From: Solirubrobacter phytolaccae | GTDB taxonomy: Bacteria > Actinomycetota > Thermoleophilia > Solirubrobacterales > Solirubrobacteraceae | Direction: 5' to 3' | DNA length: 64,000 nt | Assembly (NCBI RefSeq): GCF_027587195.1 | Contig: NZ_JAPDDP010000013.1 | Span: forward strand, 1-64,000 | Translations under genes and position numbers: made by a program | In this document: positions 2,755-50,754 of the stretch, in pieces | Numbering within the stretch: position 1 is the stretch's first letter | Layout of the letters: the number at the start of each line of letters is the position of its first letter | The notes under the pieces: model-generated | Seen by the model: the letters and a program-made list of their open reading frames with translations, nothing else | Told to the model about the DNA's origin: nothing | Database searches by the model: none

Positions 2755-3948
2755 GTGCTCCGCGCCACACCGCAGGCCGTCCGCCGCCTCGCCATCCGCA
2801 ACCAGCGCCTCGAAGGCCCGGCTCCGCGCCGCAAGCCGACGGCGCAAGACCTGCTCGAGACCGTCCGCGCGCTGCGCTGCCTGCAGCTGGACCCGACCGC
2901 GGTCGTCGCCCGCAACCACCTGCTCGTGCTCTTCAGCCGCCACGGCGCGTTCGACGAGCGCGCGTTCGAGCAGCTCGCCTACGAGGACCGGGCGCTGTTC
3001 GAGTACTGGGCGCACGAGGCGTCGTACGTCCTGAGCGAGGACCTGCCGATCCACCGCTTCGCCATGCACGAGCCCAGGTACCGCGGCCACCGCACGTGGT
3101 GGGACGGCGAGCCCGAGTTCCGTGCGCACATCCTCGAGCGGCTGCGCGAGGAAGGGCCACTGCGGGCGCGCGAGATCGAGGACAAGGCGACCGTGGGCTG
3201 GGAGTCCACGGGGGGCTGGACGAACGGCCGCACGGTCGCGCGGATGCTCGACATGCTGTGGGTCGCGGGGCAGACCGGGATCTCGCGCCGCGACGGCACC
3301 CAGCGCGTGTGGGACCTGATGGAGCGTTGCTGGCCACCGGATGCGCCGCGGGAGGAGCTCGACCCGCTCGAGGTCCAACGCCGCGCGGTCGTGCACGCGA
3401 TCCGCGCCCTCGGCGCCGCGCGCCCACCGCACATCCGCAAGCACTTCACGCGCTTCCGCTACCCAGACCTGCCGATCGTCCTCGCCGAGCTGCACGCCGC
3501 CGGCGTGATCGAGCCGCTGGCCGTCGACGGGCTGGGGGAGGACTGGTGGGTGCTGAGCGAGGACGTCGAGGCGCTCCAGAACGTCGACGACTTCAAGCCC
3601 CGCACCGTGCTCCTGAGCCCGTTCGACAACCTGCTGTGCGACCGCGCGCGGACCGAGGCGCTGTTCGGCTTCCACCACCGGCTCGAGATCTACGTGCCCA
3701 AGCCCAAGCGGCGGTGGGGCTACTTCGTGCTCCCGATCCTCGACGGCGACCGGCTCGTCGGCCGCGCCGATCTGGCGATGGACCGCAAGCGGGGCGTGCT
3801 CGTCGCCCACGCCGTCCACGCGGAGCCGAAGGTGCCGCGCGGCGCGCGGCTCCCCAAGGCGATCCGGCGCGAGCTGGAGCGGCTGGCGGCCTGGCGCGGC
3901 GCCTCCGACGTCGAGGTCCGGAGCACCCCGGACATTTGGCCACTTTGA
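2755..3948 (+). CDS. winged-helix DNA glycosylase of the YcaQ/AlkX (HTH_42) family
   Basis: A 397-residue protein of the HTH_42 family (formerly DUF1006). The E. coli member YcaQ/AlkX and the Streptomyces member AlkZ are glycosylases that unhook bulky or cross-linking N-alkyl lesions. The N-terminal part shows the family pattern (RRLAIRNQRLEG, then LRCLQLDPTAVVARNHLLVLF). It contains Gln44-Leu45-Asp46, which matches the catalytic Q-hydrophobic-D motif described for YcaQ rather than the QxQ of AlkZ. Later family segments are EYWAHEASY, LSPFDNLLCDR and GRADLAMDR. The start is GTG 2755, 4 bp after the permease stop. Placement behind a drug exporter under one TetR promoter suggests a joint resistance function. 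Enzymatic activity is inferred. Confidence 0.85.
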   Translation: MLRATPQAVRRLAIRNQRLEGPAPRRKPTAQDLLETVRALRCLQLDPTAVVARNHLLVLFSRHGAFDERAFEQLAYEDRALFEYWAHEASYVLSEDLPIHRFAMHEPRYRGHRTWWDGEPEFRAHILERLREEGPLRAREIEDKATVGWESTGGWTNGRTVARMLDMLWVAGQTGISRRDGTQRVWDLMERCWPPDAPREELDPLEVQRRAVVHAIRALGAARPPHIRKHFTRFRYPDLPIVLAELHAAGVIEPLAVDGLGEDWWVLSEDVEALQNVDDFKPRTVLLSPFDNLLCDRARTEALFGFHHRLEIYVPKPKRRWGYFVLPILDGDRLVGRADLAMDRKRGVLVAHAVHAEPKVPRGARLPKAIRRELERLAAWRGASDVEVRSTPDIWPL

Positions 3949-4041
3949 CCTGACCTAGACCCCCTTTCTCATCGTCCCCTAATCGAGCGCCGGGATGGTC
4001 GGGCGTCTCACTGGGTTCAGTTCGAGGGGGTCAAGAAAGAC

Positions 4042-6597
4042 ATGGATCGTCGAAGCAGGCGCGCCCTAGGCGTCGCCTTGGTTGCGCTGGGCATCGCCGC
4101 GGCACCGGCGCAGGCTGCGCCGGGAGTCTCGGTGTCATCGCTCAGCTCGCTCAAGGCGGGAGCCACGGCAGGGACGCTGAAGGGCACGGTCGTCAATGAC
4201 ACCGGCGCCGCGAAGAGCGCGGACGTCGCGGTGCGGATCTTCCGCCGTGGCACGAACGCCGCCGTCATCGGTCGCACCTCGGTCAAGGTCGCGGCGCACG
4301 GCAAGGCCGACTACAGCGTGAAGGTGGCGCTGCCGTCGACGCTGGCGAAGGGCAACTACTACCTGGGCGCTTGTACGTCCTACGGCAAGGGCGACGGCTC
4401 GCTCGGCTGCGCGACCGCGCAGGACGAGGTGCTCATCAAGGGCGGCACGCCCGTCCGGCCCGCGCTGGCGCGCGCCGCGCAGGCGCCCGCCGAGTGCTCC
4501 GCCGGCGGCTACTCGCTGCAGCCGGCCGGCTCGCGCCTGTACCCGGAGACGGGCAACACGGGCTACCAGAGCCTCCACACTGACATCAACCTCGTCTACG
4601 ACGCGCCGTCGAACCTGTTCCTCAACGGCACGTACGTGGACCTGCAGCAGAAGGCGACGCAGTGCCTCACGTCGTTCAGCCTCGACTTCGAGCGCACGAA
4701 CGGCGTCACGTCGACCACGGTCCCGGGCCCGAACCTGACGGTCCAGGAGATCACGATCAACGGCGTCCCGGCGACGTACACCTTCAAGCAGCCGACCTAC
4801 CCCGGCAACCCGAAGGGCCTGGACGATCCCGATCCGGCCGCGCACGCCGCGTCGAACTCCAACCCGGTCAGCGCGACCAACCCGAACCCGCCCGCGTGCG
4901 CCCCGACGGGCACGTCCGCGGCGCTCCAGGGCGCGCAGTGCCCCGCGACCAAGCTCGTGATCACGCCGTCCGCGCCGATCCCGGCCGGCACGGACTTCAC
5001 GGTCAAGGTCAAGTACGTCGGCCGCCCCGGCGTCCACGTCGACGGTGACGGCGCGACCGAGGGCTGGTTCCGCAACAACACGCCGGTCGGCGACGGTGGC
5101 TTCATGACGACCGAGCCGGTCGGCTCGATGGCGTGGATGCCGCTCAACAACCACCCGACGGTCAAGCCGACCTACGAGTTCTGGAGCACCACCAACTGGG
5201 ACTCCGCGACCGGCACCGGCCGCACGGCGATCTCCAACGGCCGCCTGATCGGCTTCACCGACAACGCCGCGGACACGAACTTCCCCGGCGGCTCGCGCAC
5301 GTGGCACTGGAAGTCGCCCGAGCCGATCGCGAACTACCTCGTCGAGAACTCGATCGGCAACTACGAGATGACCGAGCAGGTCTCGCCGAGCGGCACCGTC
5401 TACTACATGGCGCAGGCCACGGGTATCACGGCCGCCCGCAAAGAGACCAACCTCGGGATCATGCGCCAGCACGAGAGCATCACGAACTTCCAGATCCCGT
5501 TCAACGGGCCGTTCCCGTTCTCGACCAACGGCGTCGTCATCGGCCTGCCGTCCGTGAGCTTCGCGGAGGAGATGCAGACCAAGATCACGTTCCCGGGCGG
5601 CTCGATCAGCCTGGGCACCTTCCACCACGAGAACATGCACCAGTGGTGGGGCGACAACGTGTCCGAGGACGTCTACGAGCGCACCTTCTTCAAGGAGGGC
5701 TACGCCGACCTGTCCGAGGGCTACAACACGGCGCGCACGGCGGCGACCACGGCGGGCGGCCTCGGCACGCCGGCCGGTGACGCGGCCTTCGAGGCCTCGC
5801 TGGTCACGCGCTTCAACAACACCTACAACTCGACGACCGCGAGCTGGAGCGTCGCGCCGTCGAAGCCGACGAACGCGAACCTCTTCGGCTCGCAGACGTA
5901 CACCCGCTCCGGCCGCGCGTACATCGCGCTGCGGGCGATCATGGGCAAGGCCAACTTCGACAACGCGTCGAAGGAGATCCAGACCACGTTCGGCGGCTCG
6001 TCGATCACGGCCAAGCAGCAGATCGACATCTACAAGAAGTGGATGCCGATCAAGACGCAGGGCTGCCTGAACAAGCTCGACGTCTTCTTCACGCAGTGGT
6101 GGGACACGGCCTACACCGGCTCGCCCGCCGCCGGCAACAAGCCGCAGATCACGGGTCCCGGCCTCGCCGGCCCCGGCTTCTACGACGCCAACGGCGGCTG
6201 CCTGCCGTACGGCACCGACACCACGAGCACGCCCGGCGGGACCGTCGCGGCGACGCTGTCGCTGACGCTCGGCGCGCCCGGCACCTTCGCCCCGTTCATC
6301 CCGGGCGTGGCGAAGACCTACACGGCGACGACCGAGGCGACCGTCATCTCGACGGCCGGCGACGCGACGCTCACGGTGGCCGACAACAGCACGACCGCCC
6401 CGGGCTACCTGGTCAACAACACGTTCGCGCTGCCCAAGCCGCTCGGCGGCCTCGGCGTCATCAAGACGTACACCGGCCCGGTCAGCAACGACAAGGTCAA
6501 CGCCACGTTCACGCAGGAGATCGGCTCGACGGACGCGCTCCGCACGGGCACGTACTCCAAGACGCTCACGTTCACGCTGAGCACGACCAACCCGTAG
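4042..6597 (+). CDS. secreted M1-family (gluzincin) metallopeptidase with C-terminal TFTLSTTNP module
   Basis: An 851-residue exported zinc aminopeptidase-like protein. A signal peptide (MDRRSRRALGVALVALGIAAAPAQA, roughly residues 1-25) is followed by a beta-rich N-terminal region. The catalytic core has HENMH at about residues 529-533, followed exactly 18 residues later by Glu (FFKEGYADLSE), the HEXXH-X18-E zinc site of family M1. The upstream FAEEM corresponds to the GxMEN exopeptidase loop but is divergent, so aminopeptidase rather than other activity is uncertain. The last 125 residues form a separate beta-rich module nearly repeated at the end of the 17654-19855 protein. ATG 4042 is preceded by GAGGGGG about 12 nt upstream. 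A strong hairpin follows the stop. Confidence 0.88.
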   Translation: MDRRSRRALGVALVALGIAAAPAQAAPGVSVSSLSSLKAGATAGTLKGTVVNDTGAAKSADVAVRIFRRGTNAAVIGRTSVKVAAHGKADYSVKVALPSTLAKGNYYLGACTSYGKGDGSLGCATAQDEVLIKGGTPVRPALARAAQAPAECSAGGYSLQPAGSRLYPETGNTGYQSLHTDINLVYDAPSNLFLNGTYVDLQQKATQCLTSFSLDFERTNGVTSTTVPGPNLTVQEITINGVPATYTFKQPTYPGNPKGLDDPDPAAHAASNSNPVSATNPNPPACAPTGTSAALQGAQCPATKLVITPSAPIPAGTDFTVKVKYVGRPGVHVDGDGATEGWFRNNTPVGDGGFMTTEPVGSMAWMPLNNHPTVKPTYEFWSTTNWDSATGTGRTAISNGRLIGFTDNAADTNFPGGSRTWHWKSPEPIANYLVENSIGNYEMTEQVSPSGTVYYMAQATGITAARKETNLGIMRQHESITNFQIPFNGPFPFSTNGVVIGLPSVSFAEEMQTKITFPGGSISLGTFHHENMHQWWGDNVSEDVYERTFFKEGYADLSEGYNTARTAATTAGGLGTPAGDAAFEASLVTRFNNTYNSTTASWSVAPSKPTNANLFGSQTYTRSGRAYIALRAIMGKANFDNASKEIQTTFGGSSITAKQQIDIYKKWMPIKTQGCLNKLDVFFTQWWDTAYTGSPAAGNKPQITGPGLAGPGFYDANGGCLPYGTDTTSTPGGTVAATLSLTLGAPGTFAPFIPGVAKTYTATTEATVISTAGDATLTVADNSTTAPGYLVNNTFALPKPLGGLGVIKTYTGPVSNDKVNATFTQEIGSTDALRTGTYSKTLTFTLSTTNP

Positions 6598-6600
6598 CTC

Positions 6601-6631
6601 CGAACTTAAACGTCCTGGACGTTTAAGTTCG
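6601..6631 (+). terminator. perfect 14-bp hairpin terminator after the M1 peptidase gene
   Basis: CGAACTTAAACGTC (6601-6614), loop CTG, then GACGTTTAAGTTCG (6618-6631) form a perfect 14-bp stem starting 3 bp after the peptidase stop. It is unusually AT-rich for this genome. No long T tract follows, as is common in actinobacteria. A related hairpin with the same CTG loop and TTTAAGTT motif lies at 57653-57671. Confidence 0.8.
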
Positions 6632-6718
6632 CGCGCGCCGCGGTCTCCCACCCGGGAGGCCGCGGCGTTCGTCGTTAAGGGTGTGGTCAGCCGCACTGGA
6701 CAGGCGCTTATGTACGAC

Positions 6719-6740
6719 GTACGTTATGGACGTAACGTAC
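6719..6740. promoter_or_regulatory. operator-like palindrome upstream of small membrane protein genes
   Basis: GTACGTTA (6719-6726), a 6-bp spacer and TAACGTAC (6733-6740) form a perfect 8-bp inverted repeat, 22 nt before the probable ATG at 6762. Its size and symmetry resemble a TetR- or PadR-type operator. No regulator gene is adjacent, so the cognate factor is unknown. Confidence 0.55.
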
Positions 6741-6761
6741 ACCGTACAGAACGAGGCTCGC

Positions 6762-33886: not shown

Positions 33887-36298
33887 TCACCGACGGGGCG
33901 GGTTCGCGCGGATCACCGGCGCGAACCCGCCCTGCTCGGCGTCGTGCAGCTGAGCGACGCGGGCAGCGGCGCGCCGGGCGTCGTCCTCCCGGCCCGTCGC
34001 CGTGAAGGCCTCGGCCGCGCGCGCGGCGCACTCGGCGGCGTAGCGGGCCGCGCCGATCGCGACCAGCTCGTCGGCGCAGGCGGACAACGCGGGGCCGTCG
34101 GCGGCCTCGGCGTGGGCGAGATAGGCGGCGGCGAAGCGGCCGTCGCACTCGGCGCACACCGCTCGCAACGGCTCGACGACCCGCGCGGCGGGCGCACCGG
34201 CGCGCAGCGCCTCGTAGTACAGCTGCGCGGCGTACACGGGCAGCGAGGTGCGCTCGGCCTCGGCCAGCAGCCGCGCCTGGGCTGCCGCCGCGTCACCGGC
34301 GGCCAGCTCGGCCCACGCCTCGCCGCGCACGGTGTACACGAGGTCGGTGTCCAGCGGCTCGAGCTTCATCGTCGCCCGGCAGGCGCTCAGCGACGACTCC
34401 ACCCGCTCATCGTCGCCGGTGAAGAAGCCGACGCCGACGCGCAGCGCGTGCGCGGAGGCCAGCGAGCCGAACGGGTCCTGGCGCTCGAGGTGCACGACCG
34501 CCTCGGCCAGCCAGCGGTCGGCTTCGTGGTAGCGGCCGGCGAGCAGCGCGATCGCGCCGAGCGCGACCGCGGCGATCCCCGCGCCGGCGTGCTCGTCCGC
34601 CCGGATGCTCGCGGCGAGCGCCTGCGCCATGAAGTTGGCGGTCGTGTCCAGGCCCCAGCCGGACTCGAGCCCGATCACGCAGGACATGATCATCGCCGCC
34701 TCGTCGATCTCGTCGCGCAGCGGGAGCGCCGGTCGCAGCGCGCCGATCCGCTCGTGCGCCTCCTGCACGCGACCGCCGTAGAAGCAGTTGGTCGCGTGCA
34801 CCAGCTCCATCCGGCGGCGCGCCGCACCCTCCAGGCTCGGGTCCGCGAGCGCCTGTGACGAGGACTCGATCGCGGCGCGGTAACCGGTCGTCGCCGCCAC
34901 CAGCCGGACGCGCAGCGGGGCGATCTGGCTGCGCCAGGCCGGGTCGTCGGGCCACCACTCGCGGGCGCGCAGGAGCAGCTCGGCCCCGGCTTCGGCCTGG
35001 CGCAGGCCCCACAGCAGCCCGACCGCGCGCTGCTGGAGGTAACGGAGGGCCAGCAGCTGCGAGGTGATCGTCCCCTCGAGCGCGGCGAGCACCACCTCGG
35101 CCTCCTCGTGGCGCTGACGGACCGAGTGGGCGCGCGCGAGCAGCAGCGTGGCCTCGACGCCGTCGACGTCCTGCACCAGCCGGGCACAGAGGTCGGGGTC
35201 GCCGGCCTCGAGCGCGGCCTGCGCGGCCTCGAGCGCCAGCGCCGGGGCGACCGGCTGGTCGGCGTCGAGCAGCCAGCGCGCGACGAGCAGGGCGTCGGCG
35301 GACGATCGGTCGGGCCGGGCGCGGACGGTGGCGGCGAGCCGCACGCGGGCGTCCATCGCGCGCACGCTGGAGAGCGACGCGCGCACGACGTCGCCGTACA
35401 GCGGGTGCTCGAGGCGCACGTCGGCGTCGGCGATCCGGACGAACCCGCGCGCGGCCACGCGGTCGGCCGCGGAGGCGCCCGCGAGCGTGACGATCTCGGT
35501 CCGCCGCAGCGGCTCGCCGAGCGCCAGCAGCTCGATCACGTGCCGCTCGGCGGGCTCGAGCTCGGCGAGGCGGTCACCGATCAGGTCCGACAGCGAGGCG
35601 CTCGGCGGCGGTTGGCGCGTGAGCCGCCAGAGGCCGCCGGCGTCCTCGAACGCGCCGCCGGCGATCGCGCCGGTGACGAGCTCGCGGAGATAGAGCACGT
35701 TCCCGCGCGTGCGCTCGTACGCCCACCGCTGCACGCGCTGCTCGACCGGACCGTCCAGGAGCGCCTCGACCAGCGCGGCGGCGTCGCGCTCGCTCAGCTC
35801 ACGCAGCTCCAGCGGCTCGGCGCCCGCGTCGTCCATCAGGGCGCGCACGGCGTCCGGGCACGGCTCCCCGACGCGCACGGTGGCGACCAGGAAGACGAGC
35901 CCGCTCGAGACGAGATGCAGGACGAGCGTGGCCGAGGTGGGGTCGAGCCGCTGCGCGTCGTCGACGCCGAGCACGATCGGCCGTCCGTCGGCGCGCTCGC
36001 GCAGCGCCTCGGCGCAGAGGCGCATCAGCTCGACCGGGTCCTCGGACCTGGCGTCCGCCGGCAGCAGGCCGGCGCAGGCGGCGAGCGGGACCGTGGCGGC
36101 ACTGCGCGTGGCCTGGACCCACGGCGCCAGCGCGCCCGTGTCCGCGGCGGCGGCGACGGCCTCGCGCGCGAGCCGCGACTTGCCGACCCCGGCCGGGCCG
36201 ACGATGACCACGCCGGGTGCGCGGCGTGCATGCAGCGCGGCGATCCGCTCGAGCTCGGCGTCACGGCCGACGAGCGGCCGGTTGACGTCGTTGGCCAC
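33887..36298 (-). CDS. LuxR/LAL-type STAND ATPase lacking the C-terminal HTH
   Basis: An 803-residue protein with an AAA/NB-ARC-like module: PLVGRDAELERI, Walker A IVGPAGVGKSRLA (about 34-42), Walker B PIVLGVDDAQRLDP, LVATVR sensor, then YERTRGNVLYLRELV and the winged-helix region. A long helical TPR-like tail follows (about 330-790). In LAL regulators the tail is followed by a LuxR HTH of about 65 residues. Here the protein stops at QLHDAEQGGFAPVIRANPPRR, exactly where that domain would begin, and the hairpin terminator lies in its last codons. GTG 36298 starts it, 25 bp after the DyP gene, probably the same operon. It may signal through protein contacts or a missing partner. Confidence 0.85.
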   Translation of the reverse strand: MANDVNRPLVGRDAELERIAALHARRAPGVVIVGPAGVGKSRLAREAVAAAADTGALAPWVQATRSAATVPLAACAGLLPADARSEDPVELMRLCAEALRERADGRPIVLGVDDAQRLDPTSATLVLHLVSSGLVFLVATVRVGEPCPDAVRALMDDAGAEPLELRELSERDAAALVEALLDGPVEQRVQRWAYERTRGNVLYLRELVTGAIAGGAFEDAGGLWRLTRQPPPSASLSDLIGDRLAELEPAERHVIELLALGEPLRRTEIVTLAGASAADRVAARGFVRIADADVRLEHPLYGDVVRASLSSVRAMDARVRLAATVRARPDRSSADALLVARWLLDADQPVAPALALEAAQAALEAGDPDLCARLVQDVDGVEATLLLARAHSVRQRHEEAEVVLAALEGTITSQLLALRYLQQRAVGLLWGLRQAEAGAELLLRAREWWPDDPAWRSQIAPLRVRLVAATTGYRAAIESSSQALADPSLEGAARRRMELVHATNCFYGGRVQEAHERIGALRPALPLRDEIDEAAMIMSCVIGLESGWGLDTTANFMAQALAASIRADEHAGAGIAAVALGAIALLAGRYHEADRWLAEAVVHLERQDPFGSLASAHALRVGVGFFTGDDERVESSLSACRATMKLEPLDTDLVYTVRGEAWAELAAGDAAAAQARLLAEAERTSLPVYAAQLYYEALRAGAPAARVVEPLRAVCAECDGRFAAAYLAHAEAADGPALSACADELVAIGAARYAAECAARAAEAFTATGREDDARRAAARVAQLHDAEQGGFAPVIRANPPRR
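33896..33932. terminator. perfect 14-bp hairpin between convergent genes
   Basis: GGGCGGGTTCGCGC (33896-33909), 9-nt loop, GCGCGAACCCGCCC (33919-33932). It begins 13 bp after the secreted-protein stop and lies inside the last codons of the convergent LAL-type gene. It probably acts as a bidirectional terminator, though no T tract follows. Confidence 0.75.
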
Positions 36299-36323: not shown

Positions 36324-37715
36324 TCAGGCGGGGCGCTCGGCCAGCGTGCGCAGGGCCGTCATCGACGGCTGGAACAGGTACTCGCCGCCGCGCAGGGTGA
36401 CGAAGCGCGGCTGCGGCTTGAGGAAGTGGGGCGGGTGGCCCTGGATGGTCATCTTGCCCTCGGTGCCGTGGGGCTCGCCGACCAGGAAGTCCTTGTCGCG
36501 GCCGAGCCCGAACGGGTCGCCGTCGTCGATCCAGAGCGCCTGGATCGTCTCGAACTGGCGCCAGATGTCGGCCTGGAAGCAGACGAAGACGAGGCCGCGG
36601 TCCACGCCGTCGTCCTCGGTGGCGCCCGGCGCCAGCGGCTTGCCGTAGGCGCGGCCGCGGCGGACGATCCGGTGGCGGTTCGTGAGCCGGCCGTCGAAGA
36701 AGCCGGGCGCCTCGCGCGGGTTCGCGCGGCGCACGTGGGCGCCGAGCGGGCACTTCAGGCCGTCGGGGTCGTCGGCGTAGCCGAAGTCGTTGATCCGGTG
36801 TTGGTCGGAGGAGACCGAGGCGTCGGGGGAGTCGGGGGAGAGCGCGAGCGGCGTGCCGTCGGGCCAGCGGCCGACGATCTTGGCCGCGAGCTTGCGGGCA
36901 CCGCCCGGGTAGCGTTCCCCCTCGGCGGCGGTGTAGCGGCGGAACGCGGCGGCGTCCATCGCGAGCTTGCGGTAGACGACGAACGTGCCGTTGCGGTCGA
37001 ACGGGGCGACCGGCGCTCTCGGCAGCGTGCCGTCCTCGTCCTCGTAGCCGAGCAGGACCTCGCCCGTGGCGAGCTCACGCCAGCCCCCGGCGCCGTCGGG
37101 CTGGCCGTCGCCGGGGCGGGGCTCGACGCCGGCGCCGCGCACCGCGGGCTGGGCGATGCCATCGAAGAAGCCGAAGTGGTCGCGGCCGCCGGGCAGCGCC
37201 TCGGCCCGCTGGAGGTGCGCGAGCGTGACCGCGTTCTGGTCTGAGTCCTCGCCGATGATCTTCGCCAGCGCCGCGGTCAGGTGCTCCCAGTCGATCGCGT
37301 AGACGGTCACCAGGACGTGCGCGGCATCGCTGCCGAGGCCGTCCTCCCACGCGTCCGGCGCGCTCGGGCCGCGGTCGCCGAGATGGTCGGCGCGGGCGGC
37401 CATGCCGTCGCGGAACGCGTCCGGGAACGAGGCGAGCACGGCTTCGCTCAGCCCGAGCACCCGCAGGCCCGCGAACGTGAAGGCGACGTTCATCACCGTG
37501 GCCGGCGTGCCGCTGCGCCACGGCTCCGCGGTCGCGACCTGCGGCAGCATCCGGCGCATCAGCGCGCGGGCCGCGTCGACATCGACGATCCGCAGGAACA
37601 GGTACGCGGCGGCAGGATGCGTGTAGCCGCGCAGGACATTGCCCTGGATGTCGCTGAGGTCGATCTGCGAGGCGCGCGGCTCACGCCGGGGCACGTTGGG
37701 CGGGCGGCCGAGCAT
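36324..37715 (-). CDS. DyP-type heme peroxidase
   Basis: A 463-residue dye-decolorizing peroxidase. The catalytic GxxDG motif is GFFDG at about 182-186 (Asp185), the proximal heme His is in CPLGAHVRRANPR (~327), and the distal Arg is in NRHRIVRRG (~349-352). The terminal region FKPQPRFVTLRGGEYLFQPS fits the family (seen as FLKPQPRFVTL). There is no Tat or Sec signal, so it is cytoplasmic or encapsulated; no encapsulin gene or encapsulin-targeting tail is evident. It is similar to the longer DyP subgroup (about 450 residues). It belongs to a tightly spaced minus-strand operon with two homologous small proteins, a nitroreductase-like protein and a hydrolase. The substrate is unknown. Confidence 0.92.
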   Translation of the reverse strand: MLGRPPNVPRREPRASQIDLSDIQGNVLRGYTHPAAAYLFLRIVDVDAARALMRRMLPQVATAEPWRSGTPATVMNVAFTFAGLRVLGLSEAVLASFPDAFRDGMAARADHLGDRGPSAPDAWEDGLGSDAAHVLVTVYAIDWEHLTAALAKIIGEDSDQNAVTLAHLQRAEALPGGRDHFGFFDGIAQPAVRGAGVEPRPGDGQPDGAGGWRELATGEVLLGYEDEDGTLPRAPVAPFDRNGTFVVYRKLAMDAAAFRRYTAAEGERYPGGARKLAAKIVGRWPDGTPLALSPDSPDASVSSDQHRINDFGYADDPDGLKCPLGAHVRRANPREAPGFFDGRLTNRHRIVRRGRAYGKPLAPGATEDDGVDRGLVFVCFQADIWRQFETIQALWIDDGDPFGLGRDKDFLVGEPHGTEGKMTIQGHPPHFLKPQPRFVTLRGGEYLFQPSMTALRTLAERPA

Positions 37716-37717
37716 GC

Positions 37718-38272
37718 TCAGAACCGCTCCTTGAACCGCGCCTGCAGCTCCGCCGCGGACAGCCCCTGCGCCTCGACCGCGAAGTCGATCACACGCTCGC
37801 GCACCGCCAGCGCCTCACGCACCTCGACCACGCTCGCGTCCGGCATCGCCGACCGGAACAGCCCGGCCGGAGCCTGGATCGAGCGCACGAACGCGCGGAA
37901 CGCGCGCCGGTCCACGCGCCCCGGATAGCCCGCGCAGAGGCCCCACCACTCGTCGCACTCGGGCACCTCGGCGCACAGCCGGTCCAGGTACGGCTCCAGG
38001 TCGCCGTCAATCGTGCTCGTGAACACCAGGTGCGTGTGCCGGAGCGTGTCCGTCTTGCGCTGCTTCGGGCCCTGGTGCACGAGCGCGCGGAACAGCTGCA
38101 CGCGCGCGATGTGCAGCGTGTCGATGCGCGCGAACGGGCTGTCCGCGCCGATCGGCAGCGCCTCCAGGTAGGCCTCGAGCTCGTCCTCGCGGCCGTCCAG
38201 CACACGCGCGAACGTGGTCAGCGCGTAGGCGCTGCCGACCCGGTGGCCGCGATCAGAGATGCGCCTGCGCAT
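37718..38272 (-). CDS. small protein upstream of DyP, homologous to its neighbour; function unknown
   Basis: A 184-residue protein. Core segments are ALTTFARVLDGREDELEAYLEALP, SPFARIDTLHIARVQLF, THLVFTSTIDGDLEPYLDRLCAEVP, CDEWWGLCAGYPG and ALAVRERVIDFAV. The pattern suggests a ferredoxin-like (dimeric alpha-beta barrel) fold. The segments FTSTIDGDLEPYLD and ALAVRERV align with FESNFDGPWQHYID and ALAVKERF of the adjacent 38253-38783 protein, so the two are paralogs. The start at 38272 overlaps that gene by 20 bp, and the DyP gene starts 2 bp after its stop. It may be a heme- or substrate-binding partner of the peroxidase (inference). Confidence 0.72.
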   Translation of the reverse strand: MRRRISDRGHRVGSAYALTTFARVLDGREDELEAYLEALPIGADSPFARIDTLHIARVQLFRALVHQGPKQRKTDTLRHTHLVFTSTIDGDLEPYLDRLCAEVPECDEWWGLCAGYPGRVDRRAFRAFVRSIQAPAGLFRSAMPDASVVEVREALAVRERVIDFAVEAQGLSAAELQARFKERF

Positions 38273-38783
38273 CCGTCAGGAACCGCTCCCATGCGGCCTT
38301 GAACTCGTCCGGCGGCAGGGATGGGTCCAGCGCGTCGAAGCGCTCCTTGACGGCCAGCGCGTTGTTGACCATCCGCGTCGACTCGTCCGCGTGCGCGCAG
38401 TAGTAGGTGCCGCCGTCCATCGAGTTCATCGCGATCCACGCCTTCAGCGGCTCCGCGGGCGGCGGCGCCGGGAAACCGGGGCCGCGTCCCCAGGTGACGC
38501 GGATGTCCAGCGGGATCACGTACGCGAACGCGTCGATGTAGTGCTGCCAGGGCCCGTCGAAGTTGCTCTCGAAGTACAGGTACTCGTAGTTGAGCTGCTC
38601 GTCGTCGAGCCCCGGCACGATCGTCCAGCGGACGAACTTGATGAAGTTGAACTGCAGGATGTGGCGCGCCATGAACGGCAGATGCCGGGTGAGTGGCAGG
38701 CCGATGCGCAGGAACCACACCCACTGCGGCCGGATGGGCGTGAAGAGCGTCAGGCCGGTCATCCGGCCGTGGACGTTGCCCAT
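38253..38783 (-). CDS. small protein with FESNFDG motif, paralog of the next gene; function unknown
   Basis: A 176-residue protein. After a hydrophobic, Trp-rich N terminus (FTPIRPQWVWFLRIGLPLTRHLPFMARHILQF) comes LNYEYLYFESNFDGPWQHYIDAFAYVIPLDIRVTWGRGPGFP. It ends with YYCAHADESTRMVNNALAVKERFDAL. The FESNFDG...YID and ALAVKER segments are shared with the downstream neighbour. It starts 3 bp after the nitroreductase-like gene's stop. No catalytic motif is recognised; conserved His and Trp residues could contact heme or lipid. Operon context ties it to DyP and the lipid-type hydrolase. Confidence 0.72.
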   Translation of the reverse strand: MGNVHGRMTGLTLFTPIRPQWVWFLRIGLPLTRHLPFMARHILQFNFIKFVRWTIVPGLDDEQLNYEYLYFESNFDGPWQHYIDAFAYVIPLDIRVTWGRGPGFPAPPPAEPLKAWIAMNSMDGGTYYCAHADESTRMVNNALAVKERFDALDPSLPPDEFKAAWERFLTDAQAHL

Positions 38784-38786
38784 CGC

Positions 38787-40238
38787 CTACCGGTTCCAGA
38801 TCTCCTTGCCCTCGGCCTGCCGCTTGACGTGCCGGGGGTTCGCGTACTGCTCGTAGTACTCGATCTCCAGGTGCGAGCACTGGAGCCAGATGCCGGGCAG
38901 GTGGAACGGGTCCGTGTGCGCGGGGAACCGGCCGTAGGTCTCCACCAGGTAGCGGCAGATCTCCTTCGTGTACTCGATCGCCTCCGCCGGCGGGTGGCCC
39001 GCCGCCTTCATGTAGGTCTCGGCGGTCGCCTTGTCCTTGTAGGACTGGGCGAACACGTCGGCGTTCGTGTACGTGCCCTCGGCGCCGAACTTCTCCTCGA
39101 GCACCTGGTCCACGGCCGCGTCCATGTCGCGGACGTAGGGCGGGCACAGGCCTTCGAGCACGCCGTCGATGCCGACGTACGCGGGCTGGGACGCGGGCAC
39201 CGGCGGCCAGCGCTTGAAGCGGCTGTCGAACGTCTTGCCGGCGTGCTCGCGGAAGCCGAGGCCGAGGATGCCCTTGGCGGGGTCGCGCTGCCAGACGTGC
39301 GGGATCATCGGCGCGCCGTGCACCCACGCGCCCAGGCGCAGCGCCTCGGCCGTGAGCATCAGGTTCTGGAACAGGAAGTGCGCCTCGTAGTCGGTGCGCA
39401 CGGTCGTGATCGAACCCAGCGGCGCGGGCACGTCGACCGACGAGTAACCGCCACGGGCCTGCTTGAGGCCGCCGATCGGCTGGTACGGGATCGGGTCCAC
39501 GAGGCCGAGCTTGGCCGCGGCCCAGCCCGCCCACTCCATGACGTTCTTCGGGCGGAACGGCTGCCAGTCGTCGATGAACAGCGGCGCCTTGCCCTTGGGC
39601 TCGCTCAGGAGGATCAGCAGCACGTTGATGTACTGGCGCGTGTTGTCGACCACCGGCAGGAACTGCGTCGTGCCGGGCGCGTTGGTCATCTGGCCGTTCC
39701 AGCCCAGGAAGTACGGCCACTGCTTGTCCGGCATCGAGAAGCGCCCGTCGTAGACCTTGCGCTTGACGGCGGCCGCGAACGAGAGCCAGTCGTCCTCCGT
39801 GCGGTCCTCCCAGCGCGGCGGGATCTCCTTGAAGAGGTCCAGCGCCTTCTGGCCGCGGGGGCGCTCGATCAGGAACACGCCCTCGTCGTTGGTCATGAAG
39901 AACGACGTGGCCTGCGCGTTGTCGGCGCTCGACGCCGCGCGGCCGGCGACCTCGAGGAACATCGTCCCGAGCTCGGGCGAGCCGTCCGTCTTCTTGGTCG
40001 GCCCGTCGTGCATCACCGCCCCGGTGACGCTCGTGGAGGCGATCAGGATCGCTTCCTCCAGCGGCCTCAGCGCCGACGGCGCGTTGGCGCTCGTGTACGG
40101 CTGCGCGCCGTGCTCGAGCGACGTGCCCTGCGCGACGCGGCGCGTGCGCCGGTCCTGGATCGCCTGCGCGAACGGGTAGGAGAAGAAGTCGTCGAGACCG
40201 GCGTGGCCGGTCTTCGGCTGGTCCTCGGTGGCGCTCAT
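38787..40238 (-). CDS. nitroreductase-like protein of unknown function
   Basis: A 483-residue protein without a signal peptide. RRTRRVAQGTSL, LRPLEEAILIASTSVTG near the start and HFLFQNLMLTAEALRLGAWVHG in the middle resemble the FMN-contact and dimer helices of nitroreductases (R-S-R / L..iL.aA ... qNl.LaAealGLG). The protein is twice the usual nitroreductase length. The remainder (GTMFLEVAGRAASS, NDEGVFLIERPRG, LCPPYVRDMDAAVDQVLEEKFGAEG, HTDPFHLPGIWLQCSHLEIEYYEQY) matches nothing I know. It is sandwiched without gaps between a hydrolase gene and the FESNFDG gene. An FMN- or other redox-enzyme role is a weak inference. Confidence 0.6.
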   Translation of the reverse strand: MSATEDQPKTGHAGLDDFFSYPFAQAIQDRRTRRVAQGTSLEHGAQPYTSANAPSALRPLEEAILIASTSVTGAVMHDGPTKKTDGSPELGTMFLEVAGRAASSADNAQATSFFMTNDEGVFLIERPRGQKALDLFKEIPPRWEDRTEDDWLSFAAAVKRKVYDGRFSMPDKQWPYFLGWNGQMTNAPGTTQFLPVVDNTRQYINVLLILLSEPKGKAPLFIDDWQPFRPKNVMEWAGWAAAKLGLVDPIPYQPIGGLKQARGGYSSVDVPAPLGSITTVRTDYEAHFLFQNLMLTAEALRLGAWVHGAPMIPHVWQRDPAKGILGLGFREHAGKTFDSRFKRWPPVPASQPAYVGIDGVLEGLCPPYVRDMDAAVDQVLEEKFGAEGTYTNADVFAQSYKDKATAETYMKAAGHPPAEAIEYTKEICRYLVETYGRFPAHTDPFHLPGIWLQCSHLEIEYYEQYANPRHVKRQAEGKEIWNR

Positions 40239-41243
40239 CTAGTTGTGCTTCTCCAGCTCGGCAAGGGCGGTCGGCCACACGTCGCGCTCGGCGTTCGAGC
40301 CCAGCCACAGATCCAGGTGCGCGTAGTCCTTGATCACGTCGTGGGAGTAGAGGCTGTTGCCGTGGGCCTTGCGAAGCGTGTCATACGAGCGCTCCAAGCC
40401 CTTCGGGACGAACATCTTGTTGTGCTCGCCGGTGATGAAGTTGATCGGGACCTTGAAGTTCTCGAGGTTCGCCCAGTAGGCGTCCTTGCCGCCCGCGTCG
40501 CGCGCCTCTGAGGCGCGGATCATCAGCGAGATGTGCTCGAAGAACGTCAGGTTGCCGCCGCCGAAGAAGCCCGGCACGGCCGTCTCCATCGTCGGGCGGT
40601 TGATGTTCTCGTAGTCGTAGACGTCGCCGTAGATGAAGTAGATCCGGCGCGCGATCGGCGTGTTGTAGATGTGCTTGAACGGCACGACCCGCATCAGGGC
40701 CTCGATCGCCTTGCCGTCCCAGCGCTTCGGGTCGTACTCGACGTCGAGGAACTTGACCCCGAGCGACTTGAGCAGCGTCGCCATCCGCACCCAGGCGCGA
40801 GCCTGGTTGCCGGGCGTCGGGATCGGGTTGCCGGCGAGGCTGGAGAAGGTCGCACTGCGGACACCTTCCATCCCGGAGCCCATCGCCATGAACAGCGAGA
40901 GGCCGCCGACGCAGTGCCCGAAGACCTGCACGGTGTCCTGCCCGGTCTGCTCACGCACGGTCTGCACCGCCGCGGGCCAGTCACGCGTGGCGATGTCGTC
41001 GACGGTGAACTGCGTGCGGCTGGCCGGCAGCTCCGGGCTGGCCCGGTAGTCCAGCAGCCAGACGTCGTAGCCGTGCTCGCCCAGGTACTGGACCCAGTTC
41101 TTGGGCACGGTGTCGATGGCGAACGCGCTGGCGGCGTTGCCGTAGCCCGGCGCCATGACGATCGGGCCCTTGGTGCCGAACTGGTGGCGGGTCAGACGAA
41201 TCTCGGTGCCGTCTGAAGTGGGAACGGAATGTGTCTCGGTCAA
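40239..41243 (-). CDS. alpha/beta hydrolase with PhaC-like Cys nucleophile
   Basis: A 334-residue alpha/beta hydrolase. The elbow motif is FGHCVGG with Cys111 where most hydrolases have Ser; polyhydroxyalkanoate synthases and the hydrolase domain attached to actinobacterial cholesterol-oxidase-like GMC proteins share this Cys. Other segments are VMAPGYGNAASAFA (oxyanion region), WLLDYRASPELPAS, INFITGEHNKMFVPKG and DYAHLDLWLG (catalytic His). The start is TTG 41243. It is the first gene of the minus-strand operon and diverges from the MMPL gene. With the GMC enzyme and accessory gene at 54-56 kb it may act on an oxidised sterol or other lipid. Confidence 0.82.
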   Translation of the reverse strand: MTETHSVPTSDGTEIRLTRHQFGTKGPIVMAPGYGNAASAFAIDTVPKNWVQYLGEHGYDVWLLDYRASPELPASRTQFTVDDIATRDWPAAVQTVREQTGQDTVQVFGHCVGGLSLFMAMGSGMEGVRSATFSSLAGNPIPTPGNQARAWVRMATLLKSLGVKFLDVEYDPKRWDGKAIEALMRVVPFKHIYNTPIARRIYFIYGDVYDYENINRPTMETAVPGFFGGGNLTFFEHISLMIRASEARDAGGKDAYWANLENFKVPINFITGEHNKMFVPKGLERSYDTLRKAHGNSLYSHDVIKDYAHLDLWLGSNAERDVWPTALAELEKHN

Positions 41244-41342: not shown

Positions 41343-43529
41343 ATGCAAGCTGCCATGGACCGGCTCGAGCGCCTCATCGCTCGCCACCGACGCCTCGTCC
41401 TGATCGTCTGGCTGGCCATCGTCGTCGTCTCCGTACCGTTCGCCGGACGGCAGACGGAGAACCTCACCGGCGGCGGGTTCGAGAGCAAGGGCTCGGGCTC
41501 GCAGCTCGTCTCCGAGGCCTCGGAGCGAGACTTCGGGCGGCCGGGCGAGTCGCTCGCGGTGGTCTTCGACAACCGCGACGGTGACGCCGCCAAGCTCGCC
41601 GCGGCGGTCGACCGCGTCGAGCGCGACGGGTTCAAGGACGTCGAGGCGGTGCGCCTGGAGCCGCAGGCCGCCGAGGCCGCGCGCGCCTCGACCGAGCCGG
41701 TCGTGATCATGCCGCTCGTCGTCGAGGGCGACCGCGACGAGGCCGTGGACGCCGCAACGGTGATGCGCGAGAACCTGCACGCGGGCGAGGCGGGCGACGA
41801 CCTCCCGGTCCACCTGGTCGGGCAGAGCGCGCTGTGGGCGGGCATCCAGGAGCTCTCGAAGGAGGACCTCGAGCAGGCGGAGCTCTTCGGGCTGCCGATC
41901 GTGCTGATCATCCTGCTGATCGTCTTCGGCTCGCTCGCCGCCGCGGCGCTCCCGCTCGCGCTGGGCGTCGCCTCGGTGGTCGTCACCGGCGCGATCATCT
42001 TCTTCCTCTCGCAGGTCTACGGCATGTCGACCTTCGTGACCAACATGGCCTCGATGCTCGGCATCGGCGTGGCGGTGGACTACTCGCTGTTCATCCTCGC
42101 CCGCTACCGGGAGGAGCTCGCGGAAGGGCACTCGGCCGACGACGCGCGCGCGGTGGCGCTGCGCACGTCGGGCATGGCGGTCGCGTTCAGCGGCGTGACC
42201 GTGATCGTCGCGCTCGCCGGCCTGTTCCTGATCGACGCGACCGTCGTGCGCTCGATGGCGGTCGGCGCGATCGTGGTCGTCGGCATCGCCGTCCTGGCCG
42301 CGGTGACGCTGCTGCCGGCGCTGATCGCGGCGCTCGGGCACCGCGTGAGCGAGCCGGGGAAGGTCATTGGCAAGCTGCGCCGCAAGCGCGCGCCCAAGCC
42401 GGGCCCGGGGTTCTGGGAGCGCTGGACGGCGATGCTGATGCGCCGGCCACTGCCGTTCGCGCTCGCCGCGACCGCGATCATGCTCGCGATCGCCTCGCCC
42501 GCGCTGGTGATGAAGGAGAACACCGCGGCGATCGCGATGTTCCCGAAGGACTTCGAGACCCGCGTCGGCTTCGATCTCGCAGCGGGGCAGCTCGGTGGGC
42601 CGGGCGCGCTCGGGCAGGTCGAGCTGCTCGCGGACTTCCGCGGGCCCGCGGACCAGGCGGCGCTTGGGCCGTTCGTCGACGAGCTCAAGGAGCTCCCCAA
42701 CGTGCAAGCGGTCGCCGACCCGGTGCTCTCCAAGGACGGGACGAAGGCGCTGATCCTGATCACGCCCCAGCTCTCGCCTGAGAACGAAGCGACGGTCCTG
42801 CTCGTGAAACGCCTCCGCGGCCTGCTGCCGCCGACCGGCGGTGAGCTGCACGTCGGCGGGCCGACGGCGCAGAACCTCGACGACACCGCGGTCATCTCCG
42901 GCTCGCTGTGGAAGGTCGCGCTGTTCGTGGTGGTGCTGAGCTTCCTCGTGCTGCTCGTCGTGCTGCGCAGCGTGGTGCTGCCGATCAAGGCCGTGCTGAT
43001 GAACGCGCTCTCGGTCGCCGCGTCCTACGGCGTGCTGGTCATGGTCTTCCAGTGGGGCTGGTTCGACTCCGTGACCGGCTTCGAGTCGCTCGGCTACGTG
43101 CAGGCGATCACGCCGGCGCTCCTACTGGCGGTGGTCTTCGGCCTGAGCATGGATTATGAGGTCTTCATGCTCTCGCGGATCAAGGAGCGCTACCACGCGA
43201 CCGGGGACACGCAGCAGGCGGTGTCCCAGGGGCTGGCGGCGAGCGCGAAGACGATCTCGTCGGCGGCGCTGATCATGGTCGCCGTGTTCGCGATCTTCGC
43301 CGGCACGGGCGTGCCGCAGGTCAAGGAGATCGGGGTCGGGTTGGCGGTGGCGATCGCGCTGGACGCGACGATCGTGCGGCTGGTCCTCGTGCCTACGACG
43401 ATGCAGTTGATGGGCGACAAGAACTGGTGGATCCCGCAGTGGCTGGACCGGATCCTGCCGGACATGGACTTCGAGTCCTCCGAGCCTTCCCCCAAGCAGA
43501 CGACGGAAGAGGTGGTTTCGACCGCATGA
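41343..43529 (+). CDS. MMPL-family (RND superfamily) lipid exporter, copy 1
   Basis: A 728-residue transporter with the MMPL architecture: helix 1 (RRLVLIVWLAIVVVSVPFA), a periplasmic loop, helices 2-6 including GIGVAVDYSLFILARYREE (the proton-relay Asp/Tyr motif of helix 4) and FSGVTVIVALAGLFLI. A second loop is followed by the second half with FGLSMDYEVFMLSRIKERY. MmpL proteins export cell-envelope lipids in mycobacteria. It lacks the large C-terminal domain of MmpL3. The SDR gene overlaps its end by 4 bp. It is about the same length as, and clearly paralogous to, the protein at 48538. Confidence 0.93.
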   Translation: MQAAMDRLERLIARHRRLVLIVWLAIVVVSVPFAGRQTENLTGGGFESKGSGSQLVSEASERDFGRPGESLAVVFDNRDGDAAKLAAAVDRVERDGFKDVEAVRLEPQAAEAARASTEPVVIMPLVVEGDRDEAVDAATVMRENLHAGEAGDDLPVHLVGQSALWAGIQELSKEDLEQAELFGLPIVLIILLIVFGSLAAAALPLALGVASVVVTGAIIFFLSQVYGMSTFVTNMASMLGIGVAVDYSLFILARYREELAEGHSADDARAVALRTSGMAVAFSGVTVIVALAGLFLIDATVVRSMAVGAIVVVGIAVLAAVTLLPALIAALGHRVSEPGKVIGKLRRKRAPKPGPGFWERWTAMLMRRPLPFALAATAIMLAIASPALVMKENTAAIAMFPKDFETRVGFDLAAGQLGGPGALGQVELLADFRGPADQAALGPFVDELKELPNVQAVADPVLSKDGTKALILITPQLSPENEATVLLVKRLRGLLPPTGGELHVGGPTAQNLDDTAVISGSLWKVALFVVVLSFLVLLVVLRSVVLPIKAVLMNALSVAASYGVLVMVFQWGWFDSVTGFESLGYVQAITPALLLAVVFGLSMDYEVFMLSRIKERYHATGDTQQAVSQGLAASAKTISSAALIMVAVFAIFAGTGVPQVKEIGVGLAVAIALDATIVRLVLVPTTMQLMGDKNWWIPQWLDRILPDMDFESSEPSPKQTTEEVVSTA

Positions 43530-48537: not shown

Positions 48538-50754
48538 ATGCAAACGGCAATGAATCGACTCTCGGCGTTCGTGCGCGTGCGCCGAAAACTCGTCCTGTTC
48601 GGATGGCTCGCGCTGATCGTCGCGTCCGTCCCGTTCGCGAGCCAGCAGACCAAGCACCTGACCAGCGGCGGCTTCGAGGTCCCGGGCAGCGGCTCGCAGA
48701 TCGTCGACGAAGACATCGCCCGCTTCGAAGGGCAGCAGGGGAACGGGCTGGCCATCGTCCTCGAGAGCAAGGGCGGCACCGCCGAGCAGATGGGGGCCGC
48801 GGTCTCCTGGGTGACGCAGATCGCGACGGGCATCGAGCACTCTGGCATCACCCCCGAGGCCGTCCAGGCGGCTGACAAGGCCGCGGCGACGCAGCCGGTG
48901 GTCGTCATCCCGCTCATCGCCGAAGGCGTCAACGACGACATCCTCGCCGCCGCCAAGGAGTACCGCGAGGAGCTCGAGGTCGGCGCGCCCGTGGACGGCG
49001 TTCAGCGCTACGTCGTCGGCCAGCAGGCGCTGTGGGCCGGCATGCAGGAGCTCCAGAAGGAGGACCTCGAGAAGGCTGAGACCTCCGGCTTCCCCGCGAT
49101 CCTGATCGTGCTGCTCGCCGTCTTCGGCACCGTGCTGGCGGCGCTGCTGCCCGCCGGGCTCGCCGTCGCCGCCGTGCTCGTCACCGGCGCGATCATCTAC
49201 CTGCTCAGCCTCGCGATCACGATGTCGGTGTTCGTCACGAACATCACCTCGATGCTCGGCATCGGCGTGGCCGTCGACTACAGCCTGTTCGTCCTCAGCC
49301 GCTATCGCGAGGAGCTGCACGCCGGCAAGGACCGCGCCGCCGCGCTGGACACCGCGATGCGGACCTCCGGCGCGACCGTCGTCTTCTCCGGCGTGACCGT
49401 CATCGTCAGCCTCGCCGGCCTGTTCCTCCTGAACTCGACCGCGATGCGCTCGCTCGCGATCGGCGCGATCACCGTGGTCGCGATCTCGATCGCCGGCGCC
49501 GTCACGCTGCTGCCCGCGCTGATCAGCTGGGCCGGCCCGCGCGTCGAGGGCCGCGGCAAGATCGTCAGCTTCACCGGCGGCCTGTACCGCCGCGTGCGCC
49601 CGCTGAAGGCCAAGCCGCCCGGCACGCCGACGTTCTGGGAGCGCTGGACGACCGCCGTGATGAAGCGCTCGGCGCTGAGCGCGATCCTCGCCGCCGCCGT
49701 CCTGCTCGCGCTCGCGATCCCCGCGCTCTCGCTCGACTTCGGCAACGGCGCGCTGCGCCAGTTCCCCGAGGGCCACGAGACCCGCGTCGGCTTCGAGCTC
49801 GCCGCGACCCAGATCCCGGCCGGTGAGAGCGCGCCGCTGCAGATCGTCGTCGACGCCGGCGGCCCGATCGGCCCCGAGCAGGCCAAGCTCGACGCCTACG
49901 CCGCGCAGCTCAAGGACACGGACGGCGTCACCCGCGTCGAGGGCCCGATCCTCTCCACGGACGGCGAGGCCGCGCTGATCAAGGTCGTGCCGACCGAGGA
50001 CCCGGAGGCCGACTCGACCAACGCGCTGATCAAGACGCTGCGCGAGGAGGGCGGGCGCGCGTCCGGGGCGAGCACGATCGGCACGCTCAACGTCGGCGGC
50101 TACAGCGGCCAGCAGGTGGACTTCACGGCGCTGGTCTCCGAGAACCTCTGGAAGATCTTCCTGTTCGTGATGATCTGCAGCTACCTCGTGCTGCTGGTCG
50201 TCCTGCGCAGCGTGATCCTGCCGCTGAAGGCGGTGCTGATGAACCTGCTGACGATCGGCGCCGCGTACGGCGTGCTCGTCATGTTCTTCCAGTACGGCTG
50301 GTTCGACTGGACCGGCTACGAGGCCCGGGGCTACATCAACGTCGTCTCGCCACCGCTGCTGCTGGCGATCGTCTTCGGGCTCAGCATGGACTACGAGGTC
50401 TTCCTGCTGTCCCGGATCCGTGAGCGCTACCTCGCGACGGGCGACAACCGCCGCTCGGTCGCCGAGGGCCTGCAGGGCAGCGCGAAGGTGATCACGAGCG
50501 CCGCGGTGATCATGGTCGTCGTCTTCGCGATCTTCGCGACGACCGGCGTGCCGCAGATCAAGGAGATCGGCCTGGGCCTCGCCGTGGCCATCGCCCTCGA
50601 CGCCACGCTCGTCCGGCTCGTGCTGGTGCCGGCGACGATGGAGCTGATGGGCGACTGGAACTGGTGGGTGCCCAAGTGGCTGGACCGGCGCCTGCCCAAC
50701 GCCGACTTCGAGTCCGACACCATCGACGAGGAGCTCGCCCATGCCCACGCGTGA
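48538..50754 (+). CDS. MMPL-family (RND superfamily) lipid exporter, copy 2
   Basis: A 738-residue paralog of the 41343 protein with identical design: MQTAMNRLSAFVRVRRKLVLFGWLALI, GIGVAVDYSLFVLSRYREEL (proton relay Asp), FSGVTVIVSLAGLFLL, FGLSMDYEVFLLSRIRERY. The periplasmic domains differ more, suggesting different cargo. A good promoter and AAGGGG precede ATG 48538. It shares 14 bp with the SnoaL-like gene, starting an operon with a polytopic membrane protein. Copies 1 and 2 each have a member of one hydrolase pair in their vicinity, implying a duplicated export module. Confidence 0.93.
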   Translation: MQTAMNRLSAFVRVRRKLVLFGWLALIVASVPFASQQTKHLTSGGFEVPGSGSQIVDEDIARFEGQQGNGLAIVLESKGGTAEQMGAAVSWVTQIATGIEHSGITPEAVQAADKAAATQPVVVIPLIAEGVNDDILAAAKEYREELEVGAPVDGVQRYVVGQQALWAGMQELQKEDLEKAETSGFPAILIVLLAVFGTVLAALLPAGLAVAAVLVTGAIIYLLSLAITMSVFVTNITSMLGIGVAVDYSLFVLSRYREELHAGKDRAAALDTAMRTSGATVVFSGVTVIVSLAGLFLLNSTAMRSLAIGAITVVAISIAGAVTLLPALISWAGPRVEGRGKIVSFTGGLYRRVRPLKAKPPGTPTFWERWTTAVMKRSALSAILAAAVLLALAIPALSLDFGNGALRQFPEGHETRVGFELAATQIPAGESAPLQIVVDAGGPIGPEQAKLDAYAAQLKDTDGVTRVEGPILSTDGEAALIKVVPTEDPEADSTNALIKTLREEGGRASGASTIGTLNVGGYSGQQVDFTALVSENLWKIFLFVMICSYLVLLVVLRSVILPLKAVLMNLLTIGAAYGVLVMFFQYGWFDWTGYEARGYINVVSPPLLLAIVFGLSMDYEVFLLSRIRERYLATGDNRRSVAEGLQGSAKVITSAAVIMVVVFAIFATTGVPQIKEIGLGLAVAIALDATLVRLVLVPATMELMGDWNWWVPKWLDRRLPNADFESDTIDEELAHAHA

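Follow-up and report, generated by a model that had tools for sequence, protein, structure and literature searches.

The 64,000-nucleotide stretch of Solirubrobacter phytolaccae DNA analysed here, referred to as the window (contig C44 of the 7.7-Mb genome), carries a gapless run of five minus-strand open reading frames (ORFs), ABH-NTR-S1-S2-DyP. The run extends from position 41243 to position 36324 and encodes an alpha/beta hydrolase (ABH), a protein of an unnamed family (NTR), two small FxSxxDG-family proteins (S1 and S2) and a DyP-type heme peroxidase, all at the coordinates and on the strand given in an earlier note on this DNA. Going beyond that note, we find that S1-S2-DyP is the core, that the S family is far wider than the operon, and that ABH and NTR make up the variable part. 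Judging from sequence comparisons, the S proteins are probably the missing working partner of the DyP enzyme, and the best overall reading, to which we give roughly even odds, is that an S heterodimer docks a class V DyP to a second enzyme of a fatty-acyl (hydro)peroxide pathway. The operon had been put forward as undescribed, and the titles and opening lines of abstracts in the literature on DyP partners, DyP operons, DyP-P450 fusions and DyP with oleate hydratase or fatty-acid hydroperoxides, a search outside which most subscription journals lay, contained no description of an S-DyP association.

The S1-S2-DyP core

When 84,980 genomes were scanned with the S1 profile, 23 loci (numbered with the prefix L) came up, in 22 of which S1, S2 and DyP can be recognised in this order on one strand. 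At L048, S1 and DyP are clear and only the C-terminal part of S2 is visible; the assembly has a masked run of N there. Two of the entries, L043 and L047, are nearly identical, and at L054 the DyP sequence is split across two frames. The trio loci come from Solirubrobacterales, Parafrankia, Patulibacter, Gemmatimonadaceae and metagenome-assembled genomes (MAGs) of Nocardioides and Propionicimonas, and the trio is also found on a plasmid of Granulicella (Acidobacteriota). The best S1 matches belong to Solirubrobacter species, with 91% identity to S. taibaiensis. The complete five-gene order is not unique to the S. phytolaccae genome, being present in four other species, S. taibaiensis, S. deserti (also listed as CPCC 204708), S. 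soli and Ca. S. pratensis.

S1 (176 aa; 38253..38783, minus strand) and S2 (184 aa; 37718..38272, minus strand), the ORF of which overlaps that of S1 by 20 nt, had been described as a pair aligned through FESNFDGPWQHYID / FTSTIDGDLEPYLD and ALAVKER / ALAVRER. The quoted motifs are exact and the two proteins are homologous: S1 retrieves its paralogue S2 at E 4e-6 in a whole-genome search, and their profiles align over the full length (hhalign, 180 columns) with a probability of 99.9% and E 5.4e-34. Neither protein is matched by a Pfam or NCBIfam model. S is not a fragment of DyP (S1 versus DyP profile probability of 0.4%), nor is S1 a transmembrane protein, its maximal 17-residue hydropathy of ~1.5 lying below membrane grade; transmembrane (TM) hairpins occur only in fused forms. 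In a tree of 52 rows, all S1 sequences form one clade (support 100/99) that includes Acidobacteriota, Gemmatimonadota and Actinomycetota, with S2 outside. Since the S1 clade spans three phyla and excludes S2, the S duplication predates the dispersal of the trio, which is what one would expect if S1 and S2 are halves of a single assembly that cannot replace each other. The heterodimer suggested in the earlier note is thus supported, because S1 and S2 are separate, long-lived lineages and two S domains are elsewhere joined in a single polypeptide.

The AlphaFold model of S1 is ferredoxin-like (beta-alpha-beta-beta-alpha; pLDDT 70, moderate), and its top Foldseek neighbours are mostly dimeric alpha+beta barrels, none of them significant (best E 0.22). 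In its predicted fold and nearest structural neighbours, S1 may resemble proteins of the ABM, Dabb and IsdG type, but differs from them in having no significant structural E value, no Pfam match and no sequence similarity that we could find. Polyketide cyclases and monooxygenases are among the known dimeric alpha+beta barrel proteins. The neighbours of S1 include the TcmI cyclase and antibiotic biosynthesis monooxygenases, which would fit a role in the tailoring of secondary metabolites, with S as a substrate-binding or cyclase-like subunit and S-DyP oxidising a specialised natural product together with a P450 or NTR. The Gloeothece S-DyP locus lies by TOMM genes and some trios are followed by MFS exporters (L051:11927-13378), also in line with this idea; however, no polyketide synthase (PKS), non-ribosomal peptide synthetase (NRPS) or RiPP core genes were seen near most loci, and the core is conserved over several phyla, which is unusual for a single metabolite. 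We regard tailoring as quite unlikely.

The DyP gene (463 aa; 36324..37715, minus strand) begins after a gap of 2 nt from the S2 stop, and S2 adjoins DyP in related loci as well. By its domains, the product belongs to the DyP peroxidases, as had been supposed: DyP_N and Dyp_perox_C match at E 1e-13 and 8e-7 (PF21105 score 52.1, cut-off 27.5; PF20628 score 29.4, cut-off 20), and TIGR01413 is above its cut-off. The heme residues are intact, with the GxxDG, proximal His and RRG motifs present and D185, G186, H327, R352 and R353 (including the distal GxxDG Asp, the proximal His and conserved Arg) invariant in 22 relatives. The protein is class V/C-like and its closest solved structures are 8RE3/8RE2 (E 3e-82), those of Deinococcus radiodurans DrDyP. 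The iron-uptake protein EfeB was considered and dismissed, its model scoring far under the cut-off.

DyP enzymes are commonly assumed to oxidise aromatic or lignin-type compounds, and members of the family act on dyes and lignin models (PMC10820274, introduction); S would then be a docking protein for an electron donor. Against this, a Tat-like signal is not apparent at the DyP N-terminus, MLGRPPNVPRREPRASQ, on inspection (no predictor was used), and none of the loci examined carries genes for aromatic catabolism. Such a function is, in our estimate, very improbable.

The S family accompanies DyP across bacterial phyla

Outside the trio loci, one S, two S or a fused S stands beside DyP in Deinococcus, cyanobacteria, proteobacteria and other actinobacteria, and S is next to or fused with DyP in at least six bacterial phyla. 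S was found in 11 of 396 sampled Actinomycetota genomes, and at all 15 places a DyP ORF shared the 1.8-3.6 kb locus with S. Of 36 plasmid records with S, 34 carry DyP on the same strand no more than ~1.1 kb away, and in the remaining two the distance between S and DyP is ~7 kb. The reverse search, starting from DyP, found S adjacent in 13 of 18 loci (E<=1e-40), including all 11 at E<=1e-110. Some of the plasmid records counted are near-identical and the genome samples are limited; within that scope, the neighbourhood counts indicate that the association is not due to chance, and S is a near-obligate neighbour of DyP. Several small 'hypothetical' genes preceding DyP match the general S profile (Nostoc, E 1e-21; Gloeothece, 4e-17; Bradyrhizobium, 5e-11).

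The fusions extend this picture. In Gemmatimonadota (L075), S is joined to S by a hydrophobic hairpin and adjoins DyP, and a plasmid search with this S-S protein recovered S domains in Rhizobium, Sulfitobacter, Skermanella, Novosphingobium, Sphingomonas, Roseomonas and Deinococcus. Natural S-TM-S fusions measure 495 and 504 aa. Domain scans further revealed an S-TM-S-DyP fusion in R. leguminosarum (976 aa) and P450-S-TM-S-DyP fusions in Pararhizobium (1423 aa), Novosphingobium (1443 aa) and Sulfitobacter (1620 aa), the outer S domain being weak in the last two (domain E 0.03-0.05). In Skermanella, S-TM-S, DyP and P450 are three genes. Together with the conserved gene order, the fusions make a physical S1/S2/DyP complex in the window very probable.

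DrDyP, a class V/C-type enzyme (PDB 8RE2, 8RE3), belongs to the same enzyme family as the window DyP and has an S gene directly upstream. The D. radiodurans gene at NZ_OV024759.1 23031-24404 encodes the crystallised protein, matching 8RE3 over the entire length; the S gene ends 1 nt upstream and a catalase-family gene lies downstream. The setting thus differs from that of the window in comprising one S and a mini-catalase instead of two S, NTR and ABH. DrDyP is low-spin and inactive at physiological (neutral) pH, and the structure paper treats the natural substrate as an open question and asks what event could trigger activation (PMC10820274); a word search of that paper found no mention of neighbours, catalase or partners. 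S may switch DyP from the resting low-spin to the active state, a possibility that we put forward tentatively. Encapsulin-DyP systems are similar in that a DyP has a dedicated partner protein, but S is not a capsid protein, and none of the loci examined showed an encapsulin gene, for which no dedicated search was made.

On a plasmid of Bradyrhizobium CB82 (L104 5992-8718), two single-type S genes precede DyP, in what looks like an independent duplication. An unnamed gene of ~340 aa with the motif YWTWSYPWE / YVSWSYPAE lies by DyP in both Streptomyces (L102 6523-7536) and Nostoc (L107 7176-8216).

The partner enzyme varies: P450s and mini-catalases

A P450 gene lies directly 3' of DyP in 10 loci (L050-L058 and L060); P450 hits at L042, L043, L047, L049, L059, L062 and L064 were left out as frame or overlap artefacts of a long query. 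The P450s of these loci are homologous to the P450 domains of the fusions (E down to 1e-43, Pararhizobium) and keep the heme Cys, and the I-helix acid is replaced by Pro or another residue (GWIPT, GFGPT, GFVPT), as might be expected of a peroxide-using enzyme.

The P450-type locus L060 is titled as a Bifidobacterium breve MAG; its S1-S2-DyP-P450 genes are Solirubrobacterales-like, and the entry is probably mis-binned or mislabelled. Ca. Solirubrobacter pratensis, one of the species with the five-gene order, also carries an S1-S2-DyP-P450 locus (L055) and an extra, edge-cut S1-like ORF (L046 3-842, minus strand) beside an unrelated P450 (496-1908, plus strand).

Mini-catalases are found beside S-DyP in Deinococcus, Sphingomonas, Roseomonas, Sphingobium, Rhodococcus and Acinetobacter, within ~2.5 kb of S-DyP in two Gemmatimonadaceae, and at a diverged paralogue in the S. 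phytolaccae genome itself (L036; C95:8000-22000, 3189-6758, minus strand), in which S1-S2-DyP is directly followed by the mini-catalase gene. Upstream of this paralogue lies a LuxR-type regulator-like ORF (L002:2512-3468). All 11 aligned catalase domains keep the distal His and the RxxxY motif, and the S-DyP mini-catalases are of one family with the N-terminal, catalase part of catalase-animal-peroxidase fusions. In their short catalase fold, distal His and RxxxY motif they resemble the cyanobacterial catalase-heme dioxygenase fusion, which acts on linoleate (PMC11719350), and the catalase-related allene oxide synthase and hydroperoxide lyase. The difference is that the window operon has no catalase or dioxygenase gene, the link running only through homologous operons.

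The catalase neighbour could also be taken to indicate a peroxide-stress module, in which S activates or chaperones a general-purpose DyP that, with the mini-catalase, removes H2O2 and damaged products with no dedicated fatty-acid pathway. In D. radiodurans, DRA0145 (DrDyP) and DRA0146 (catalase) are both raised after exposure to UVC and vacuum (PMC5731708), DRA0146 is counted as a third, weaker catalase of the organism (PMC7143949), and the Granulicella trio has katG and Fur genes in its vicinity. Such a module would leave unexplained the acid-less P450 fusions, the NTR/ABH pair and the oleate hydratase, patatin and thioesterase neighbours described below, and the inactivity of DrDyP at neutral pH also speaks against it, so that we consider it unlikely, if the most probable of the three alternatives discussed here.

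NTR and ABH take the third place in the window clade

In the clade of the window, the place of the third partner is, by gene content, occupied by NTR and ABH: NTR is present in 6/6 other genomes of this clade and in 0/6 of the other trio genomes. In the Propionicimonas MAG, NTR-ABH face the trio across a pyridine-nucleotide oxidoreductase gene, and in the Nocardioides MAG they are on a contig other than that of the trio. The Propionicimonas enzyme is a pyridine nucleotide-disulphide oxidoreductase whose gene (L048 10323-11612, plus strand) separates DyP from the convergent NTR-ABH, and is a possible electron donor.

NTR (483 aa; 38787..40238, minus strand), whose ATG directly follows the ABH stop, had been labelled a double-length nitroreductase-like protein, a label that is not established. 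The window protein has no Pfam match and so does not fall under the PF00881 model; one of 24 relatives has a weak PF00881 match (E 0.0034), and profile matches to flavin reductases are weak as well (E 0.07-0.45). NTR might conceivably be a nitroreductase-like flavoprotein acting as a flavin-dependent oxidoreductase, which we suggest with reserve. It has relatives within the same class as well as in Rhizobium, Nonomuraea and Haladaptatus. The homologues of Rhizobium phaseoli, R. jaguaris and Nonomuraea adjoin a catalase-animal-peroxidase fusion, an arrangement like that of the cyanobacterial linoleate fusion (PMC11719350), and a dioxygenase-type gene was met only beside these NTR homologues, in Rhizobium and Nonomuraea. 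A 195-aa protein beside NTR in Rhizobium phaseoli was dropped as a candidate S relative, being hydrophobic and missing the motif.

ABH (334 aa; 40239..41243, minus strand; TTG start) matches Abhydrolase_1 at E 1.8e-9. The Cys nucleophile that had been read from the sequence is borne out by the GHCVGG box in the nucleophile elbow, and relatives keep both this Cys and a C-terminal His. The protein is weakly similar to gastric lipase and polyhydroxyalkanoate (PHA) synthase; it has the Cys box (G-x-C-x-G) of a class I/III PHA synthase, but was rejected as such at 34 bits against the TIGR01838 cut-off of 622.

Fatty-acid neighbours and proposed function

On Roseomonas and Sphingobium plasmids, genes for an oleate hydratase, a 3-hydroxyacyl-CoA dehydrogenase, an acyl-CoA thioesterase and a TetR regulator are divergent from catalase-S-DyP. 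Thioesterase and patatin genes follow DyP in Sphingomonas, and a 3-hydroxyacyl-CoA dehydrogenase gene is part of the Deinococcus and Acinetobacter S-DyP loci. These neighbours, with the P450s and catalases, point towards a fatty-acyl hydroperoxide as the substrate, with a chance that we put slightly short of even.

In the docking model that we favour, S1 and S2 would be the halves of a heterodimeric ferredoxin-like partner (dimeric alpha+beta barrel type) dedicated to class V DyP. S dimers, S1:S2 in the window, would bring DyP and the second enzyme together at or near the membrane, to which the dimers would be anchored when fused. A reactive fatty-acyl peroxide or aldehyde could then pass between the active sites, with DyP and its partner acting in succession. 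In most relatives, the second enzyme would be either a P450 that lacks the canonical I-helix acid or a mini-catalase of the catalase-related type. Its counterpart in the window would be NTR, reducing or oxidising the product, and the Cys hydrolase ABH would supply, free or trap the acyl group.

Several observations weigh against this model. Lipoxygenase, dioxygenase, P450 and catalase genes are all absent from the window operon, so that the gene set of an oxylipin pathway does not occur there in one operon, and P450s and mini-catalases are found in the homologous loci. The S1 structure model and its matches are, as described above, of moderate confidence and non-significant, respectively, and the AlphaFold model of NTR, based on six close sequences, has a pLDDT of 36. 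Five of the 18 DyP loci have no detectable S, at least one of these lying at a contig end, and the distance correlation among S1, S2 and DyP (r 0.93) is what would be expected of any co-inherited genes. Because fatty-acid genes were not seen at several S-DyP loci (Streptomyces, Nostoc, and Gloeothece near TOMM genes), the substrate is one that we infer.

More speculatively, S could be a general, unrecognised subunit of class V DyPs, which would be inactive and low-spin without S and carry out oxylipin-like chemistry with it, passing fatty-acyl peroxides on to a P450, a mini-catalase or a flavoprotein within one membrane-bound assembly. If true, the natural role of class V DyPs would be neither dye nor lignin oxidation. 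DyPs are widely studied, and a family of small proteins that is absent from Pfam and NCBIfam and recurs alongside P450s, mini-catalases and fatty-acid genes opens the question of their substrate and partner to direct testing.

The cassette of catalase-like gene, S and DyP with the divergent oleate hydratase (L086 4737-7854, L106 4872-7989) has S and DyP ~95-98% identical across plasmids of different genera. Given this near-identity and the transposase genes nearby, it appears to be spreading on mobile DNA.

Genomic setting of the operon

A scan for promoters and terminators gave nothing exceeding chance. PADLOC models gave no match that would suggest a defence system, and the unnamed proteins had no PHROG match that would point to a phage origin. 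Downstream, an AAA_16 ATPase/regulator-like ORF (36298-33887, minus strand) starts 25 nt past DyP; it is not counted in the operon, because the ORFs that come next to DyP on this side at related Solirubrobacter loci do not cluster with it. This ORF (33887-36298) has a partial AbsR2-like match, with no helix-turn-helix (HTH) domain reported. Upstream, a divergent MMPL transporter gene starts at 41343. It is the first of two MMPL-family transporter genes less than 10 kb apart, both on the plus strand (41343-43529 and 48538-50754).
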